10,520 bases of DNA from positions 1-10,520 of the forward strand of contig PLEA01000635.1 of the NCBI GenBank assembly GCA_003136335.1. The letters run 5' to 3'. Source of the DNA: Acidobacteriaceae bacterium (GTDB lineage Bacteria > Acidobacteriota > Terriglobia > Terriglobales > SbA1). A model generated the notes under the pieces. It was not told where the DNA came from and made no database searches. It saw nothing but the letters and a program-made list of their open reading frames with translations. Shown here one piece after another: positions 1,671-9,336 of this stretch. Position numbers and translations under genes: made by a program. How positions within the stretch are numbered: position 1 is the first letter of the stretch; each line of letters begins with the position of its first letter.

Positions 1671-2312
1671 TCACTTCACTTCGGCAGGACAAGGCGCTCC
1701 CGCTGCCTGCCATTGCTTCACCTTTGCGGCAAACTCCTCATGCGGCATGGGGACAGGACTTCGGCCCTCGCCGGGGTTCCAGGCCCAGGACACGAGTTTA
1801 TCTTCCGTGAGGTGTTCGACGAGTTGATCAAGGTTCCGGTTCCTGTTTTGTTTGGGATCTTTGATCGACTGGCAAAGTTGCGCATCGGTCAGTCCCTGCC
1901 AGATCATGGGAGTTTTCGAAGGCGGCAGACCCCAGTTGGGTGCGCCGGGCGGCAGATGTGCTCCCGCCAGATTGTGGTCCTGATGACAGGCGCTGCATTT
2001 TTCGGCAGTCAGTCCGTGACCGTCAGGACCCCGCCGCACGTTCATGGTGTGCGGATGTCCGTTATCGCCCTGCCGCGGAGAGTCTCCCTGCGAATGACAG
2101 TTCATGCAGCGCGGGTGCCGCAACACAGGAACAAACGCTGTGAAGAGCGCTCGCTCGTCGCCTGCTGCTGATGCAGCCATACTCGCGGGCTTACTCTTTA
2201 AGTCCGCGGGCCGTTCCGCAACGGCTATCGGAAACCAGAGACAGAGTGCCCCGGCGAGCCCGACAAACCCTGTCAAAAACGCTTTTCGAACCAATTTGTG
2301 CAAGTGTTTCAT
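1671..2312 (-). CDS. Periplasmic diheme c-type cytochrome of the molybdenum-hydroxylase operon
   Basis: 213 residues from an ATG (2312-2310) that overlaps the stop of the upstream hydroxylase gene (ATGA) and follows a GGAGG at 2317-2321. The frame stays open further upstream, but that extension lies inside the neighbour's coding region and has no cytochrome features, so I reject the longer start. A basic N-terminus plus hydrophobic segment (about residues 10-32, ending AVAE) looks like a signal peptide or anchor. Two heme c attachment motifs are visible: CMNCH (69-73) and CSACH (106-110). The rest is rich in His, Pro and Trp, with several Met (for example 136 and 189) available as axial ligands. 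Its place as third gene of a coupled set suggests it takes electrons from the IorAB-like enzyme and passes them to the respiratory chain (inference). Confidence 0.85.
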   Translation of the reverse strand: MKHLHKLVRKAFLTGFVGLAGALCLWFPIAVAERPADLKSKPASMAASAAGDERALFTAFVPVLRHPRCMNCHSQGDSPRQGDNGHPHTMNVRRGPDGHGLTAEKCSACHQDHNLAGAHLPPGAPNWGLPPSKTPMIWQGLTDAQLCQSIKDPKQNRNRNLDQLVEHLTEDKLVSWAWNPGEGRSPVPMPHEEFAAKVKQWQAAGAPCPAEVK

Positions 2313-4474
2313 ACCGCCTCCGTCAGACGGATGGGTAGCCGACGGATTCGCTTTCCAGTAACGGCGAACACGGCATTTGCGATCGCCGGCGCCGCACACG
2401 GAACACCTGGCTCTCCGATGCCGCCGGATTTCTCGTTGTTCTCCACGATGTGAGTTTGGATCTCCGGACATTCATTGATACGCATCACCGGGAAAGTGTG
2501 GAAATTTGTTTGCTGCAATCGTCCGCTCTCGAAGGTCAACTCCTGGAATAGTGCGGCCGAGGCTCCAAAGATTGCGCCACCCTCAGTTTGCGCCGCGATA
2601 ATGCCAGGGTTCACGTACTGTCCGCAGTCGATGGCACACACTAGGCGGTGCACCCGAACCTTGCCGTCCGTAACCGACACTTCGGCCACGTGCGCGGAAT
2701 AGCTGCCAAACGCAAAATGCACAGCGATTCCCCGGCCCATCCCTTTTGGCAGCGGCTGGTCCCACCCCGCTTTCTGCGCCGCGAGATCGAGCACGCCAAG
2801 GTGCCGCGGCTGCTTCATCAACAGTCCGCGCCGGAACTGGTAGGGATCTTTTCCTGCCAGGCCGGCGAGTTCGTCTACGAAGCACTCAGTGGCAAAGGCA
2901 GTGTGAGAGTGTCCCACGGAACGCAGCCACTGCACGGGAACATTGATATCCGCCCGGTGCGATTCAACCGCCAGGTTCGGGATCGCGTAGGGCAGATCGT
3001 CAACGCCTTCGACGGACGCGGGATCGTACTCCTTTCCCTTCATCATCATCCCTTCGAACGGCGTTCCCGCCATGATCGATTGCCCGACCAGACGAGATCT
3101 CCAACTCACCGGATTCCCAGCGGCATCAACCCCGCCTTCGATGGCGTGCAGAAATGCCGGGCGATACCAGCCGCCGGCCATGTCGTCTTCGCGCGTCCAA
3201 ATCACTTTGACCGGGGCTCCCGCTGCTTTGGCGACGTGCACCGCTTCCACAACAAAGTCGGACTGCGGATTCGCCCGGCGTCCGAAGCCTCCGCCCAGCA
3301 GAGTGGTGTGGAGCTGAACCTTCTCGTTGGGAAGTCCGGCGACCTTTGCAGCGTTGGCGCGATCCACCGTCTGAAACTGTGAGCCGGTCCAGATCTCGCA
3401 AGAGTCCGGGCGCAAGTCCACTGTGCAGTTCAGCGGCTCCATCATCAGGTGGGAGAGGTAGGGAACTTCGTAAACTGCCTCGATCTTCCTGGTTGCATTC
3501 GCCAGCGCAGCGGCGGCATCTCCTTCGTTCCGGACGGTCTTGCCGGGCGATTTCGCGCGCTCGCGGAAGTCCGCCATCATCTGACTGGTGTTGAAGTCCC
3601 GCATGCTGCCTTCGTCCCAATCCACCCGAAGGGTATCCCGAGCCATCTTGGCTTGCCAGAAGGAGTCCGCGATCACCGCAACGCCGGAGGGAACAGCGAC
3701 AATTTTGCGCACTCCCGGCATCGAACGGGCCCGGGAATCGTCAAAGCTCTTCATGGTCGCGCCGAAGATGGGAGGACGGGCGATCACGGCGGTTACCATT
3801 CCAGGCAATTTGACATCGATCCCGAAGACGGCTTTACCGTCCAGTTTCTCGGGAGTGTCGAGCCGCTTGATCGGTTTGCCGATCAGTTTGAACGTCTTTG
3901 GATCTTTCAGCTGTACGTGCGCGGGCGGCGTTTGCTTTGCCGCAGCGTCGACCAGCTGCCCATAAGTCAGCTTACGATTGGAACCGTTGAACACCGCCCC
4001 TGAGTCGGTGCGGCAGGCCGTTGTTTCCACATTCCATTGCTGCGCAGCCGCAGCGGTGAGCATGGCGCGTGCCGCCGCCCCGGCCTGCCGGAATTGTTCC
4101 AATCCCGACCAAACGCTGGAGCTTCCCCCTGTCATCTGCATGCCGAAGGCCGGGTGGTTATATTTGGGATCGACTGGAGCAGGCTCAAAACCAACTTTGG
4201 TCCAGTCGGCGTCGAGTTCCTCGGCGAGGAGCATGGGCAAAGAGGTGTAGACACCCTGCCCCATCTCCGAATGGTTCACGATGACCGTCACCCGTTCGTC
4301 AGTTCCGATCCGCACAAAAGCGTTTGGCGTGAAAACATTGGCGGACGGCTGCGCCGAAGCCAGTTTACTTACTCCAGGCAAATAGAAGCCGAGCAACAAA
4401 CCGCCACTGGCTGAAACTGAAAGCTTGATAAATTCGCGACGTTCCATCCCGGTGCGCTCCCGTCGAGTACTCAC
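2309..4474 (-). CDS. Tat-exported molybdopterin-binding subunit of a xanthine dehydrogenase-family hydroxylase (IorB-like)
   Basis: 721 residues, normal for the short, IorB-type large subunit. These enzymes hydroxylate N-heterocycles or oxidise aldehydes at a molybdenum cytosine-dinucleotide cofactor; the true substrate cannot be read here. The N-terminus carries a twin-arginine signal (ERREFIKL, residues 11-18, then a hydrophobic stretch to about 38 and a likely cleavage near ASAQ), so the enzyme is periplasmic. Other landmarks: [11 protein letters not shown] (114-124), the cofactor-contact motif LLGGGFGRR (392-400), and GIGEPG (685-690), where E688 is at the catalytic glutamate position of the family. 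The chosen start is a GTG overlapping the upstream stop (GTGA), with AAGGAAGG six bases before it. An ATG nine codons in (4447), preceded by GGGAG, is a possible alternative that still keeps the Tat motif. No disruption is visible. Confidence 0.93.
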
Positions 4475-4941
4475 CTGGCACCTTCCTTTGCCACCATCTC
4501 GGCAGCCCGATGGATTGCCCTACGGATGCGCGGATATGTTCCGCAGCGACAAATGTTCCCAGTCATCGCCTGGTCAATATCCTCATCCGTGGGCGTTGGT
4601 TTCTCGCGCAACAGAACGGCCGCACTCATCAGTTGCCCCGATTGGCAGTAGCCGCACTGGGGAACGTCTTCCTCGATCCACGCACGTTGCAGTGGATGGC
4701 TCAGATTGGGCGACAGTCCTTCGATTGTGGTAACCGCTTTCCCAGTCGCGCGCGAGACTGGCGCGACACAGGAGCGCACGGCCTCTCCATCAATATGGAC
4801 AGTGCAGGCGCCGCATTGCGCCATACCGCACCCGTACTTGGTTCCGGTGAGACCAAGTTGTTCGCGGATAACCCAGAGCAGCGGAGTGGAAGGATCGACG
4901 TCGAGATCGACGCGTTTGCCGTTAACGGAGAAGCCAATCAT
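4471..4941 (-). CDS. [2Fe-2S] subunit of the xanthine dehydrogenase-family hydroxylase (IorA-like)
   Basis: 156 residues, the usual length for the small iron-sulfur subunit. It relays electrons from the molybdenum centre of the next gene's product. The plant-type ferredoxin cluster ligands are C38, C43, C46 (CGMAQCGAC) and C58. The second, helical [2Fe-2S] domain has C96 and C99 (QCGYC) and C131/C133 (CRCG). All eight cysteines are present. No signal peptide is seen, so the protein probably crosses the membrane folded together with the Tat-tagged partner. AGGAGA six bases before the ATG is a good ribosome binding site. It is first of three overlapping genes. Upstream, a TAAAAT at 4982-4987 (minus strand) could be a -10 box but lacks a good -35, so whether the operon has its own promoter or is read through from the selenoprotein gene is unresolved. 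Confidence 0.93.
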
Positions 4942-5111: not shown

Positions 5112-5849
5112 TCACTTACTTGCTCGCGTCGGGAGGGCCCGAGAAAGGGCTGCTTCCAACTCGGCAGGCTTAAACCCGAAGGGACCGGGTTTGCTCTTGT
5201 ACACAATGCGGCCTTGCGAGTCGATCAGATAGATCCGGTCGGGCCAGCCCGTATACGCTTGTTCCGTTGAGTTGCCGAACTCGTCGAGTACAGCCGGGAA
5301 TTCTATGCCAAGTTTTCGCACACAAGCTCCGGCGATGAATGCTCGATCTTCTTCCGTTTTCGGGCTGGCAAAAACAACGCTGTCTTTGATATTGCTCTGC
5401 ATTTGCCAGACATCGCTGGGATGCGCTTCGGTGATGTACACCACCAGAAATGCGACGCGTCCGCGATACTGCCTGTAAAGCTTGTTCAGAGCGGGAACCT
5501 CCCGCCGGAATGGCGGTCAAGTATAACTGCCGAATACCAGCACGACAGGTTGTCGCTGATTGAGCGTAGCAAGCTGAACGCGCTCGCTCTTGTCCAACTT
5601 GAGCAGAGAAAAAGTTGGCGCGGGATCGCCCACGTGCAGACTGCCTGCGCGGGCTTGCGTCCACAGGGTTTCAAACGGGAACAGCATGAAGACGACCGGG
5701 CCGGGCATTCTGGCCATGACCCGTCCAAAGGCTTCAGGGGGCTGGTGCATGGCCCACCAGACGTAGGCTCCAAAGAAGGCGTAGACGATCACCAGGCAGA
5801 CCAGGAGCCTGCTCAGGAGCCTACGCGTAAATGGGCTGAGCTTCTTCAT
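5112..5849 (-). CDS. Iodothyronine deiodinase-like selenoprotein with in-frame UGA (Sec111)
   Basis: A single 245-residue frame from ATG (5849-5847) to TGA (5114-5112), interrupted only by TGA at 5519-5517 (codon 111). Residues 1-110 hold an N-terminal membrane anchor (about 12-32, LLSRLLVCLVIVYAFFGAYV) and the start of a thioredoxin fold (VGDPAPTFSLLKL, PVVLVFGSYT). Right after the UGA the same frame continues PPFRREVPALNKLY, then VVYITEAHPSDVW and AYTGWPDRIYLIDSQGRIVY. These match deiodinase hallmarks: FGSxTUPPF, YIEEAHxxDGW and LPERLYVI. E141 and H143 lie 30 and 32 residues after Sec, as for the active-site Glu and His of animal enzymes. A bacterial SECIS hairpin follows the UGA. The family carries out selenol-dependent reductive dehalogenation in animals; the bacterial substrate is unknown. 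Tyr109 replaces the Cys two positions before Sec; C176 is the only other cysteine outside the membrane segment. The start overlaps the receptor stop (TAATG) without a clear ribosome binding site, suggesting translational coupling. Gene finders would report two ORFs or a pseudogene. Confidence 0.9.
5491..5519 (-). promoter_or_regulatory. UGA codon and bacterial SECIS-like hairpin for selenocysteine insertion
   Basis: On the coding (minus) strand the UGA is followed by 11 bases and then GCGGG-AGGTT-CCCGC: a perfect 5-bp stem (5505-5501 with 5495-5491) and a five-base apical loop containing GGU. The loop begins 16 bases after the UGA. In E. coli fdhF the essential loop bases G23 and U24 sit in a similar AGGUCU loop; the equivalents here are G22 and U23 counted from the U of UGA. 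No bulged U is evident in the stem. A competing small hairpin (CCGCC-ATTCC-GGCGG) lies directly after the UGA. Confidence 0.75.
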
Positions 5850-8800
5850 TAGAACAAGATTTTCAGCGCGACCTGGATTACGCGCGGGCTCACGTCTGAC
5901 TGGATCTGGCCGAAGGTGCCCGTTTGGATGTCTTCGATGTCGCTAACCGGCAGGCGGAAATTGGTATGGTTCAGGAGGTTGAATAATTCTCCTCGGAATT
6001 GCAGCTCTTTTGATTCGGTGAGGCGGATGTTCTTGAACGCGGAGAAGTCCCAGTTCACGTATCGCGGGCCCAGGACTGCGTTGCGGCCTTCGTTGCCGAA
6101 AACCTCGAAGCGGCCTAGAGGATCCGGTTGGAGTGGCTGGAAGGCTTTTACGTTGAACCACTCCTGAGGAGTGCGCGGACCCGAGTTGGGGTTTCCAATC
6201 ACATTGGGGCGGTTGGCGGAGAAGCCGGTGATTTCCGGAGCCTGCCCTTGCAGCGAAACGTCGTTCGAGTCGAACACGGTGAAAGGCGTTCCGCTCATCG
6301 CCGTGAAGATCCCATTCAGCTGCCAGTTGCCGAGAACGTGTCCGTACCATGCGCTGGAGTGCTGCAAGAAAGGAAGGCTCCACTGGTAGCTCAGCACGAA
6401 GCGATGGCGAGCGTCGAACATGGAGGGGCCGCGCTCAGCAGCCAGGTTGAAGGGGTTTTGCGCCAGGTCATTCTCGCCCGCAACGGCCTGCGGAGACGAT
6501 CCGGTGATGTTGAAAGAAGAGACGTCATCGATGGAGTGCGACCAAGTATAAGACGCGAGGAACGAGAGACCGTGCCCGAAGCGCTTACGCAGGCTGGCTT
6601 CAAGGGCGTTATAACCGGAATTCGCGAGGCTGGCGATTTCACCGACCGAACCATAGACACAATTATTGGGGTTCGCCAGGGTGCACCCGGAATAAAGGCG
6701 ACGCTGGTTCACGTTGTTTTCGTTCGAGACGCCCACGCCGGGAATGAAGGCTGGCGGATTCCCTTCGATGAATCGAGGCAACCGGACGCCGGTAGTGCCG
6801 ACGTACCCGGCCTGGAGCAGCCAGTCCTCACCGAATGAGCGCTGAATGTTCAGATTCCAATCCTGCGCGTAGGGTAGATGCAGGTTTCGTGCAACAACGA
6901 GCAGGGTCATCGGCTCGGGGAAGGGTACTCCGAAAGGATCCGGAGCATAAAACGGATTGGCAAATGACTTGATGGGAAATCCCAACTGAAGCGTCTTCAG
7001 GTACGGAGGCGCGCTGACCGGATCCTGCAGCGGACCGCCCTCACCGGTGTAGTAGGGCTCGTAGAAAATTCCGTAAGCCGCGCTGACCACGGTTTTGGCG
7101 CCGCCGCGCGGGTCCCAGGCAAATCCAACGCGCGGAGCAAAAGCCGTCTTCTGGGTTGCAATCAAGCCCCTGGGTACGCCCGAATCGCCGGGATAGAGAA
7201 GTCCTGCCGGAGCGTTTGGAAGTACGGTGGACTGCGCTCCGGGAACAAACAGATTCACGCGGTTCTTATTCTCGGTGGAGGGGAAAGGGATCTCGTAGCG
7301 AAGTCCGAGGTTCAGGGCGAGGCGAGAGGTGACCTTGTAGGTGTCCTGGGCGTAAGCATCGATGGCGCGGTCGCGAATTTCGCGGCTGAAATCGCCGCCA
7401 CCTTGCAGAAAGACCACGGGGTTGCCGGAAAGGAAATTGGCAAAACCGTCGTTGTAGAGGAAGCTCTCAAATGAGGGAATGCCGGCGAATACAAAAAATC
7501 CGTTGGTGGCGATGCCCTGTAGCGCGTTGATCTGGTCGCGGCGGTAGCCTCCGCCAAACTTGAATTCGTGGCGGCCATGGATCCAGCTCAGAGAGCCAGA
7601 GAGGTCAAACGTATTCTGATAAGTGTTGCGCGGTCCGGTGATGGGGTCGCCGACCGAGGCGTATCCACCGATCTGAATGAATGGAGGTCCGGCGGCCGAA
7701 GGCAGCGTGGGAGCGTACTGAAATCCTAAGTTCGACAGCGGCTCGTGATTCAGGTGCTGGTCGAGCAGGAAGGTATTGCGGAGATAAGAAAAGCGCGCGA
7801 CGCCGATGGTGGACGGGGAAAAGATGTGCGTGTCCTGCGCGACGAAGTTCTGCGCGCGGTCATACTCGCCTACCGGGAAGCCGGGGACATTGGCGCCGAC
7901 GGGCGAAAGAGGATCTGTGGTCGGGCCGCTGCTGTACATGTAGCGGAAATTCAGCGTGTCGGCGCGGGAAAGATAATGATCGAGGCGCATGCCGAACTGG
8001 TTGTTATTCGCGCTCAGGGTCTGGGTGGCGATGAATCCATTTTGTCCAACGTTGGGCAGCGGGAAAAGCGGCAGGACACTCGCCGCTGTCGGATCGATGG
8101 GCGTGAAAATCGTCATTTGGTTAAACGGCACCGACTGTCCAAAAAACGTGAGCTGCCCATTAGGGTCGGATGCGCCTTGCGAGTTGACGCACATACCGCT
8201 GGTCGAGTTAAAGGAATCTCCGGGGATGGACGTGCACAGCTGCCCGAAGTTGCCCTGCGTTTCCGGTTGCGAAGCCACGGTTGCGGGCACGGATTCGCCC
8301 TGCCGGTTGCGGAAGCCTTCGTAATATCCGAAGAAGAAAGTCTTGTTCTTCACGATCGGCCCGCCGAAAGTCGCGCCGAATTGATTCTGCTTCAACGGCT
8401 GAACGCTGTGGGTGAAGTAATCCGACGAATCCATCGCATCGTTGCGCAGAAACTCCCAAGCCGCGCCATGAAAGGAGTTGGAGCCGGAGCGCGTGACGAT
8501 GTTGGTCGTGGATCCGGTGTTGCGTCCGAACTCCGCATTCGCGTTGTGGCTGAGAATCTTGAACTCGGCAATCGCGTCGATGGGCGGCTTGAGAACGAAG
8601 CCGCCGTCCACTGAACTGGCATTATCGGCGCCGTCAATCAGAAAATTATTCGATTCCGGCCGTTGGCCATCGACGGCGTAGGCCTGATTCTGCCGTGCCG
8701 GGCCTCCGGCTTCGAGAAGTCCAGGAGTCAGCGGCACGACGCCGGGTTGCAGTGTTCCCAACTGAGAAAAGTTGCGCCCGTCGAGCGGGAGATCGAGAAT

Positions 8801-9223
8801 CTCACGCTCCATGACGGTTTCGCCGAGACTGCTGACCGTGCTCTGCACCAATGCGGCATCCGCCTTGATCTCGACTTGCTGCGTCTCGGAACCGACCTTG
8901 AGGCTAACGCTGACCGTCGCAGTCTCGTTCACGTCCAGGGAGATTCCTTGCTGCAAATATTTCTGGAAGCCTTTGGCGCGAACTTCCAACTGGTAGTGCC
9001 CGATCGGGAGTTCGATCAGCACGTACGCGCCCTGGCGGTCCGTCATTGCGGAACGAGTTAAGCCCGTCTCGACCTGTTGCGCTGTGACGGTAGCAGCCTG
9101 GACAGTGGCGCCGCTCGGATCCAGCACCGTTCCACGGATACTTCCCGTGATTTGCTGCCCGGCGACGTTCAGGCTTACAAAGACTGTCGCGATTACAAAC
9201 GTCAGTGCTTTAAGGCTCCGCAT
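5849..9223 (-). CDS. Oar-like TonB-dependent outer-membrane receptor with carboxypeptidase-regulatory-like domain
   Basis: 1124 residues from the chosen ATG, typical for the very large receptors abundant in acidobacteria. Order: signal peptide (MRSLKALTFVIATVFVSLNVAGQ); a carboxypeptidase-regulatory-like beta-sandwich at about 25-110 (GSIRGTVLDPSGATV, GAYVLIELPIGHY); a plug domain from about 120 (EREILDLPLDGRNF, NNFLIDGADN); and a long beta-barrel ending in the aromatic-terminated strand VALKILF, the outer-membrane insertion signal. It should import a large or scarce ligand using TonB energy; the ligand is not deducible. The frame is open upstream to a TTG at 9289 and an ATG at 9274, but the ATG at 9223 gives a clean signal peptide and has GGGGA seven bases ahead. 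The stop overlaps the start of the deiodinase-like gene by one base. No TonB/ExbBD genes are nearby. No frame disruption is visible. Confidence 0.9.
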   Translation of the reverse strand: MRSLKALTFVIATVFVSLNVAGQQITGSIRGTVLDPSGATVQAATVTAQQVETGLTRSAMTDRQGAYVLIELPIGHYQLEVRAKGFQKYLQQGISLDVNETATVSVSLKVGSETQQVEIKADAALVQSTVSSLGETVMEREILDLPLDGRNFSQLGTLQPGVVPLTPGLLEAGGPARQNQAYAVDGQRPESNNFLIDGADNASSVDGGFVLKPPIDAIAEFKILSHNANAEFGRNTGSTTNIVTRSGSNSFHGAAWEFLRNDAMDSSDYFTHSVQPLKQNQFGATFGGPIVKNKTFFFGYYEGFRNRQGESVPATVASQPETQGNFGQLCTSIPGDSFNSTSGMCVNSQGASDPNGQLTFFGQSVPFNQMTIFTPIDPTAASVLPLFPLPNVGQNGFIATQTLSANNNQFGMRLDHYLSRADTLNFRYMYSSGPTTDPLSPVGANVPGFPVGEYDRAQNFVAQDTHIFSPSTIGVARFSYLRNTFLLDQHLNHEPLSNLGFQYAPTLPSAAGPPFIQIGGYASVGDPITGPRNTYQNTFDLSGSLSWIHGRHEFKFGGGYRRDQINALQGIATNGFFVFAGIPSFESFLYNDGFANFLSGNPVVFLQGGGDFSREIRDRAIDAYAQDTYKVTSRLALNLGLRYEIPFPSTENKNRVNLFVPGAQSTVLPNAPAGLLYPGDSGVPRGLIATQKTAFAPRVGFAWDPRGGAKTVVSAAYGIFYEPYYTGEGGPLQDPVSAPPYLKTLQLGFPIKSFANPFYAPDPFGVPFPEPMTLLVVARNLHLPYAQDWNLNIQRSFGEDWLLQAGYVGTTGVRLPRFIEGNPPAFIPGVGVSNENNVNQRRLYSGCTLANPNNCVYGSVGEIASLANSGYNALEASLRKRFGHGLSFLASYTWSHSIDDVSSFNITGSSPQAVAGENDLAQNPFNLAAERGPSMFDARHRFVLSYQWSLPFLQHSSAWYGHVLGNWQLNGIFTAMSGTPFTVFDSNDVSLQGQAPEITGFSANRPNVIGNPNSGPRTPQEWFNVKAFQPLQPDPLGRFEVFGNEGRNAVLGPRYVNWDFSAFKNIRLTESKELQFRGELFNLLNHTNFRLPVSDIEDIQTGTFGQIQSDVSPRVIQVALKILF

Positions 9224-9336
9224 GCATTTCCCCAGTTTCCCCAAGAGTTGCTGTGAACGTTGAGATGAAGACATCCCGAAAAAGCCCAACAGTTTCAGAC
9301 TGCTGAGATCTCGACCCGCAGAGGGAGAGTGCGGCG

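Follow-up and report, generated by a model that had tools for sequence, protein, structure and literature searches.

A probable membrane-anchored, deiodinase-like selenoprotein encoded across an in-frame TGA in an acidobacterial contig

We analysed a stretch of 10,520 nucleotides from Acidobacteriaceae bacterium (contig PLEA01000635.1, hereafter the window), in which the minus strand at 5849-5112 very probably carries one gene for one membrane-anchored enzyme with active-site selenium. The protein belongs to the deiodinase-like family PF00837, and its codon 111 is an in-frame TGA that we read as selenocysteine (Sec). From its sequence and that of its relatives, we think that the enzyme is probably a periplasm-facing, Sec-containing selenol reductase or peroxidase of the deiodinase-like branch. 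The features of the gene itself are the following:

5112-5849, minus strand: deiodinase-like (PF00837) selenoprotein gene, ATG at 5849, 245 codons plus a terminal TGA
5517-5519, minus strand: UGA codon 111, read as Sec from TGA in relatives, the hairpin after it, selB and tRNA-Sec
5748-5816, minus strand: N-terminal transmembrane anchor, residues 12-34, predicted from hydropathy and charge

Standard open reading frame (ORF) calling splits the gene into two ORFs of 110 amino acids (5849-5517 and 5444-5112). When TGA is translated as U, the frame runs on for 134 codons past codon 111 (window 5519-5517), as the original prediction had stated, and the motif blocks that it had named on both sides are all present (FGSYT-U-PPF, YITEAHPSDVW and WPDRIYLI). 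Sec111 lies 30 residues from Glu141 and 32 from His143, a spacing that had been likened to that of animal deiodinases and is identical in mouse DIO3 (Sec170, Glu200, His202). The Pfam search that had been proposed gave T4_deiodinase (PF00837) over residues 70-237 (E 7e-33, 114.3 bits against a cut-off of 27), a match that therefore runs through the TGA; weaker matches on the same protein are to AhpC-TSA (41.7 bits) and Redoxin (40 bits). The closest solved structures by sequence are mouse DIO3 (5.6e-24) and then DIO2 (5e-20), and an AlphaFold model (predicted local distance difference test score of 95) has the deiodinase fold, with mouse DIO2 and DIO3 as its best structural matches. We have next to no doubt that the protein is a member of PF00837. 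The membrane anchor that had been proposed is also predicted here, and the model places the helix at residues 6-34. Its positively charged N-terminal side predicts an orientation with the N-terminus inside and the catalytic domain in the periplasm. Among the relatives described below, 1 of 80 loci was too short for the anchor analysis.

The relatives were obtained by scanning contigs of GTDB species with two peptide patterns, neither of which covers residue 111, and the best 80 of 282 loci were fetched; all bear acidobacterial names. Codon 111 is TGA in all 80, with the frame continuing past it in each (in L040 across a stretch of N directly after the TGA), a position that on the aligned sequences is far beyond chance. 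Further stops in the aligned frames are confined to the C-terminal end, with the exception of a single TAA in L058 at the very N-terminal margin of its alignment. If the TGA were a true stop, the locus would be a pseudogene or two genes parted by a nonsense mutation. ORF calling does yield two ORFs, but the TGA and the continuing frame are kept in every relative, the residues after 111 are conserved rather than disrupted, and the codons of the hairpin described below are nearly fixed. Both halves are also under similar purifying selection: the median ratios of nonsynonymous to synonymous substitution rates are 0.077 and 0.064 on the two sides of the TGA (30 of the 80 loci given, 10 pairs usable, synonymous rates mostly saturated, with one value of 26.5). 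A nonsense mutation had been judged hard to credit from the window alone; with the relatives at hand, we regard a true stop as extremely improbable.

Another explanation is that a change of code or a suppressor makes TGA encode tryptophan or another ordinary residue. Among the best 120 of 453 homologues in protein databases, the residue aligned to position 111 is Cys in 60, Trp in 50, Arg in 3 and Gly in 2, and 5 are unaligned; the counterparts with Cys or Sec that had been expected are thus both found, as Cys in these proteins and as TGA in the acidobacterial loci. The Trp-bearing proteins, which speak for an ordinary residue, come nearly all from one source, jgi (P0002-P0035 and others). In DNA, however, all 80 relatives have TGA at this codon, and none of the 117 loci examined has TGG. 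TGA also serves as the terminator of this gene in 28 of 79 relatives, Cys occupies the site in other family members, and selB and the hairpin are present. We give this explanation almost no credence. Because TGG is missing from these 117 loci, the Trp homologues are read, overall rather than contig by contig, as probable translations of TGA under code 4. The probable cause is that jgi applied this code to short contigs, so that selenoproteins are hidden by an artefact of annotation. A few of the matches listed carry the name deiodinase (P0080, P0087, P0091) and many are annotated as peroxiredoxin. The proteins with Arg (P0064, P0065, P0082) or Gly (P0087, P0090) at the Sec site may represent sense mutations, translations under other codes or errors. 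Taken together, decoding of codon 111 as Sec is strongly supported by sequence, and we hold it to be nearly certain. Elsewhere in the family, one genome (G526) has a Sec deiodinase-like gene (L121) whose frame leaves the family soon after the EAH motif, and a Cys form of the domain (FGSY[ST]CPNFR) occurs in long frames (L120, L142, L143), of which the printed start of the last two resembles, by eye, tetratricopeptide (TPR) repeats. Viral contigs gave four pattern matches, with no relative among them.

The sequence just after the TGA holds a bacterial selenocysteine insertion sequence (SECIS):

5489-5506, minus strand: bacterial SECIS hairpin, within codons 115-121, coding strand GGCGGG-AGGTT-CCCGCTC
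5496-5500, minus strand: apical loop AGGUU, 19-23 nt after the U of UGA

When 104 conserved codons were ranked by excess codon constraint over up to 81 sequences, the top five, 118, 116, 115, 119 and 117, were those that encode the hairpin GGCGGG-AGGUU-CCCGCUC. In its bulged form the stem is 98.3% paired on 39 sequences, one pair switches from G-C to C-G in 8 of them, and the covariation score was reached by none of 500 shuffles. A straight stem of 6 pairs is 91.0% paired and shows no covariation, and the bulged form was therefore preferred. In a second acidobacterial group (L125-L130) the stem at this position is CGCC/GGCG, and 5 of the 6 members keep the loop core AGGU; in a joint alignment of 35 rows two pairs go together from G-C to C-G in these 6. 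Six further loci (L115, L118, L122, L124, L131, L132) have a hairpin with a GGN loop four bases further on, by sequence, three of them folded; the first three are acidobacterial and read FGSCT-U-PPF, i.e., they carry the proximal Cys of DIO1 and DIO3. Rfam gave no family at gathering score on the window. When 347 genomes of the phylum were searched with a Cys protein (P0115) for a Cys-form DNA control of the hairpin, 17 gave matches, of which 16 had TGA; the sole Cys gene is distant and lies in a long frame (848 aa), and does not serve as that control.

The evidence on Sec machinery comes from the genomes of relatives rather than from the window's own organism. Each of 30 such genomes has the gene with exactly one TGA; selB, which the original prediction had proposed to look for together with tRNA-Sec, scores above its cut-off in 26 of them, and 23 have a strong tRNA-Sec (at least 64 bits). 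This threshold was used because the 47-bit cut-off, passed by 27 of the 30, some at about 47-54 bits, lets in weak matches and is also passed by 5 of 14 control genomes. Of 249 genomes sampled from the class at a nominal 90% completeness, 76 have any match to the gene; selB occurs in 62 of the 64 with the TGA gene versus 116 of the 185 others (p 1.3e-8, uncorrected for kinship; selB at E <= 1e-65 in 178 genomes, 175 over the curated cut-off). The 64 include a genome whose match also has TAG and TAA (G088) and one with a partial match (G109); the two without selB are G120 and G245. The loci themselves carry some of the machinery. In 11 of the 80 loci the gene is closely preceded, on its own strand, by a frame from the selB cluster, and selB likewise precedes it in L073; of these 12, 10 have a selA-cluster frame before the gene and 8 a selD-cluster frame, several contigs ending there. 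The gene thus follows selD-selA-selB in some relatives (selA and selD are named in L055). ARAGORN finds a tRNA-Sec in 7 of 80 loci; the one in Edaphobacter lichenicola (L056) stops some 150 bp short of the matched region, and the sel genes lie past it on the opposite strand. A TGA also lies inside a molybdopterin oxidoreductase in 9 of 12 acidobacterial genomes tested, in five examples (L144-L148) in the context NQAR-U-H, whereas a sixth region (L149) gave no frame. We take this context to be that of the formate dehydrogenase alpha subunit, and by sequence the formate-dehydrogenase-like gene is probably a second selenoprotein of these hosts. Sec is therefore probably in general use in them.

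To compare the active site with that of animal deiodinases, residues were counted over 114 bacterial rows, 111 of them distinct, that extend from about 45 residues before Sec to 134 after it and leave the anchor outside; a motif filter dropped L040 (N stretch) and L120 (Cys).

5421-5429, minus strand: Glu141-Ala142-His143 (EAH), counterpart of DIO3 Glu200/His202, in 111 of 111 distinct bacterial rows
5322-5324, minus strand: Cys176, proposed resolving cysteine, in 93 of 111 distinct rows

Together with Sec, Ser108, Thr110, Tyr138, Glu141 and His143 are invariant in these rows; they are the counterparts of DIO3 Ser167, Thr169, Tyr197, Glu200 and His202, and that of Trp207 is kept in 110. This conservation, and the nearest structures being DIO2 and DIO3, would fit a periplasmic reductive dehalogenase in which Sec111 removes a halogen from an aromatic compound of the soil in the way that the animal enzymes deiodinate thyroxine; the gene in the window is, moreover, coupled to an outer-membrane protein that could import a ligand. 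The thyroxine pocket argues otherwise: the counterparts of DIO3 Phe258, His219 and Arg275 are Pro in 110, 104 and 88 of 111 rows (Pro203, Pro163 and Pro221 in the window), and Phe258Pro and Arg275Ala are reported to lower DIO3 activity (PMC7506546). The outer-membrane neighbour, too, is found in only 8 of 80 loci besides the window. Because these pocket residues are replaced, we do not class the protein as a thyroid-hormone deiodinase; its sequence indicates that it is not a thyroxine deiodinase in detail, despite the shared core. We consider a dehalogenase rather unlikely, and of the original prediction the deiodinase-family selenoprotein stands while the halogenated substrate, though possible, is weakened. 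In a tree of 51 hand-picked rows, the ten obtained with mouse DIO3 as query (six named animals and four others, four animal rows being untrimmed as they miss the trimming motif) are set off from the remaining 41 as a single starred group. The tree was rooted at its midpoint, leaves 8 of 48 inner branches open and includes a long row (L123), and we therefore make no claim on which bacterial branch is nearest to animals.

The rows also suggest how the selenium might be recycled. Exactly one of three sites carries Cys in 109 of 111 distinct rows: 176 in 93, 159 in 13 and 109 in 3, with none of the three in 2. Site 109 is the proximal Cys of DIO1 and DIO3, 159 lies just before the helix that follows the omega-loop, and 176 within that helix, near but not at the position of the distal Cys239 of DIO3. 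This pattern suggests a resolving thiol, and judging from the alignment it is somewhat likely that Cys176 resolves Sec111. We propose the following mechanism for the protein, a membrane-anchored, periplasm-facing member of the deiodinase-like branch of the thioredoxin fold. SelB, directed by the hairpin just after the UGA, inserts Sec at codon 111, a strongly supported step. The selenolate, held in the Ser108/Thr110/Tyr138/Glu141/His143 network, would attack an oxidised or halogenated small molecule and be left as a selenenyl intermediate, which Cys176 may resolve as a selenenyl-sulfide to be reduced by a periplasmic thiol donor. The enzyme would most likely reduce peroxides or another kind of oxidised compound, not iodothyronines; we lean slightly towards a non-halogen redox substrate, with dehalogenation as a possible alternative. 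A thiol-disulfide oxidoreductase of the ResA/TlpA type, serving the maturation of cytochrome c or of outer-membrane proteins, would have to do without CxxC, the motif being U-P-P-F, and the EAH stretch with Tyr138 and Glu141 is of deiodinase type. We find this role improbable.

Several observations weigh against the selenol reductase or peroxidase that we favour, or against parts of the evidence for it. The selB association ignores kinship. In the 39-sequence set, the count of pairs changed on both sides (one) was also reached in 463 of 500 shuffles, and in the joint alignment the pair-change count was reached in 273 of 500, the covariation score in none; a single inherited event might account for the stem swap, and pair counts ignore kinship. 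A full-length Sec protein (L117) lacks all three cysteines. In DIO3, the distal Cys239 was judged too far from Sec170 to resolve it (PMC7506546), and work on DIO1 reports no disulfide to the distal Cys (PMC9141512).

A more speculative reading, which we doubt, is that this soil-bacterial branch kept Sec fixed while the resolving Cys moved between residues 109, 159 and 176. If so, the proximal-Cys mechanism of animals would be one of several solutions, and these proteins would be a series of living forms that leads from redox enzyme to dehalogenase. In its boldest form, the acidobacterial enzymes would be Sec-based periplasmic dehalogenases of halogenated soil organics.

The gene neighbourhood adds one upstream feature:

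5849-9289, minus strand: Oar-like outer-membrane protein gene, 1146 aa, OMP_b-brl_4 and CarboxypepD_reg domains, upstream, its TAA overlapping the ATG of the deiodinase-like gene (TAATG)

A large outer-membrane protein gene likewise ends where the deiodinase-like gene starts in L001 and L003, and the 8 loci counted above are those in which a member of this protein cluster ends less than 700 bp before the TGA on the same strand. The two genes may share expression in the nearest relatives, with no general link. Downstream, the minus strand at 1671-4941 encodes a 2Fe-2S subunit and a molybdopterin-binding subunit (4941-2309), and a protein with CxxCH motifs and no Pfam match, which together resemble a molybdenum hydroxylase of the isoquinoline oxidoreductase type. 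None of their frames belongs to the 20 largest clusters of neighbours around the 80 loci; the link was dropped and these genes are taken as chance neighbours.

The identity proposed in the original prediction stands, but the protein is not new as a kind, because a study of the Sargasso Sea had already described, in 2005, deiodinase-like bacterial selenoproteins that have a bacterial SECIS, Cys homologues and a suggested redox role (PMC1088965). The family recurs in the Global Ocean Sampling (GOS) study of 2008, in a table that gives it with 22, which we take as the count of Sec sequences, and lists no motif for it (PMC2398784). Our literature search, whose coverage was partial and left most subscription journals outside, found no deiodinase in Acidobacteria. 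Three known selenoprotein genes were counted in Occallatibacter riparius, in a paper whose main text does not use the word deiodinase (PMC12013277); a deiodinase-like gene may be among the three. Within the literature searched, the new features are the spread among acidobacteria, the combination of U-P-P-F with an N-terminal anchor, the linkage to selDAB, the covariation in the SECIS and the cysteine at one of three sites. A widespread soil selenoprotein is easily missed, because ORF calling cuts the gene and metagenome proteins often show Trp. Read correctly, it provides 111 distinct, naturally occurring versions of the deiodinase active site, among them those of the named strains Edaphobacter lichenicola, Acidicapsa dinghuensis and Occallatibacter savannae, with which the function of bacterial deiodinase-like proteins, a question since 2005, and the origin of the animal thyroid enzymes become approachable.

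Among known systems, animal DIO1-3 (structures 4tr3, 9h48), the enzymes that switch thyroid hormone on and off, share with the window protein the fold, the Sec position, EAH at +30/+32, the membrane anchor and the Ser/Thr/Tyr/Glu/His/Trp network. They differ in the thyroxine-pocket residues Phe258, Arg275 and His219, all Pro here, in the proximal Cys position, which is Tyr here (and Ala in DIO2; PMC9141512), and in having a eukaryotic rather than a bacterial SECIS. The fdhF SECIS of E. coli, for which matches occur in 5368 of 5426 genomes of that species, has an AGGU loop at nearly the same distance from UGA (20 versus 19 nt; AGGUCU at 20-25 nt by hand count) but a different stem sequence and a loop counted as 6 nt instead of 5. 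Peroxiredoxins (AhpE, Bcp) and the ResA/DsbE thiol oxidoreductases have the same fold. The closest likeness in bacteria is to the marine deiodinase-like selenoproteins, which share PF00837, a bacterial SECIS and the occurrence of Sec and Cys forms. Compared by description, that family has the motif UxxC, as given in two reviews (PMC9312934, PMC13188914), whereas the window protein has U111-P-P-F114 with its second Cys elsewhere, and is set apart by its acidobacterial lineage, its N-terminal anchor and, in some genomes, its linkage to selDAB.
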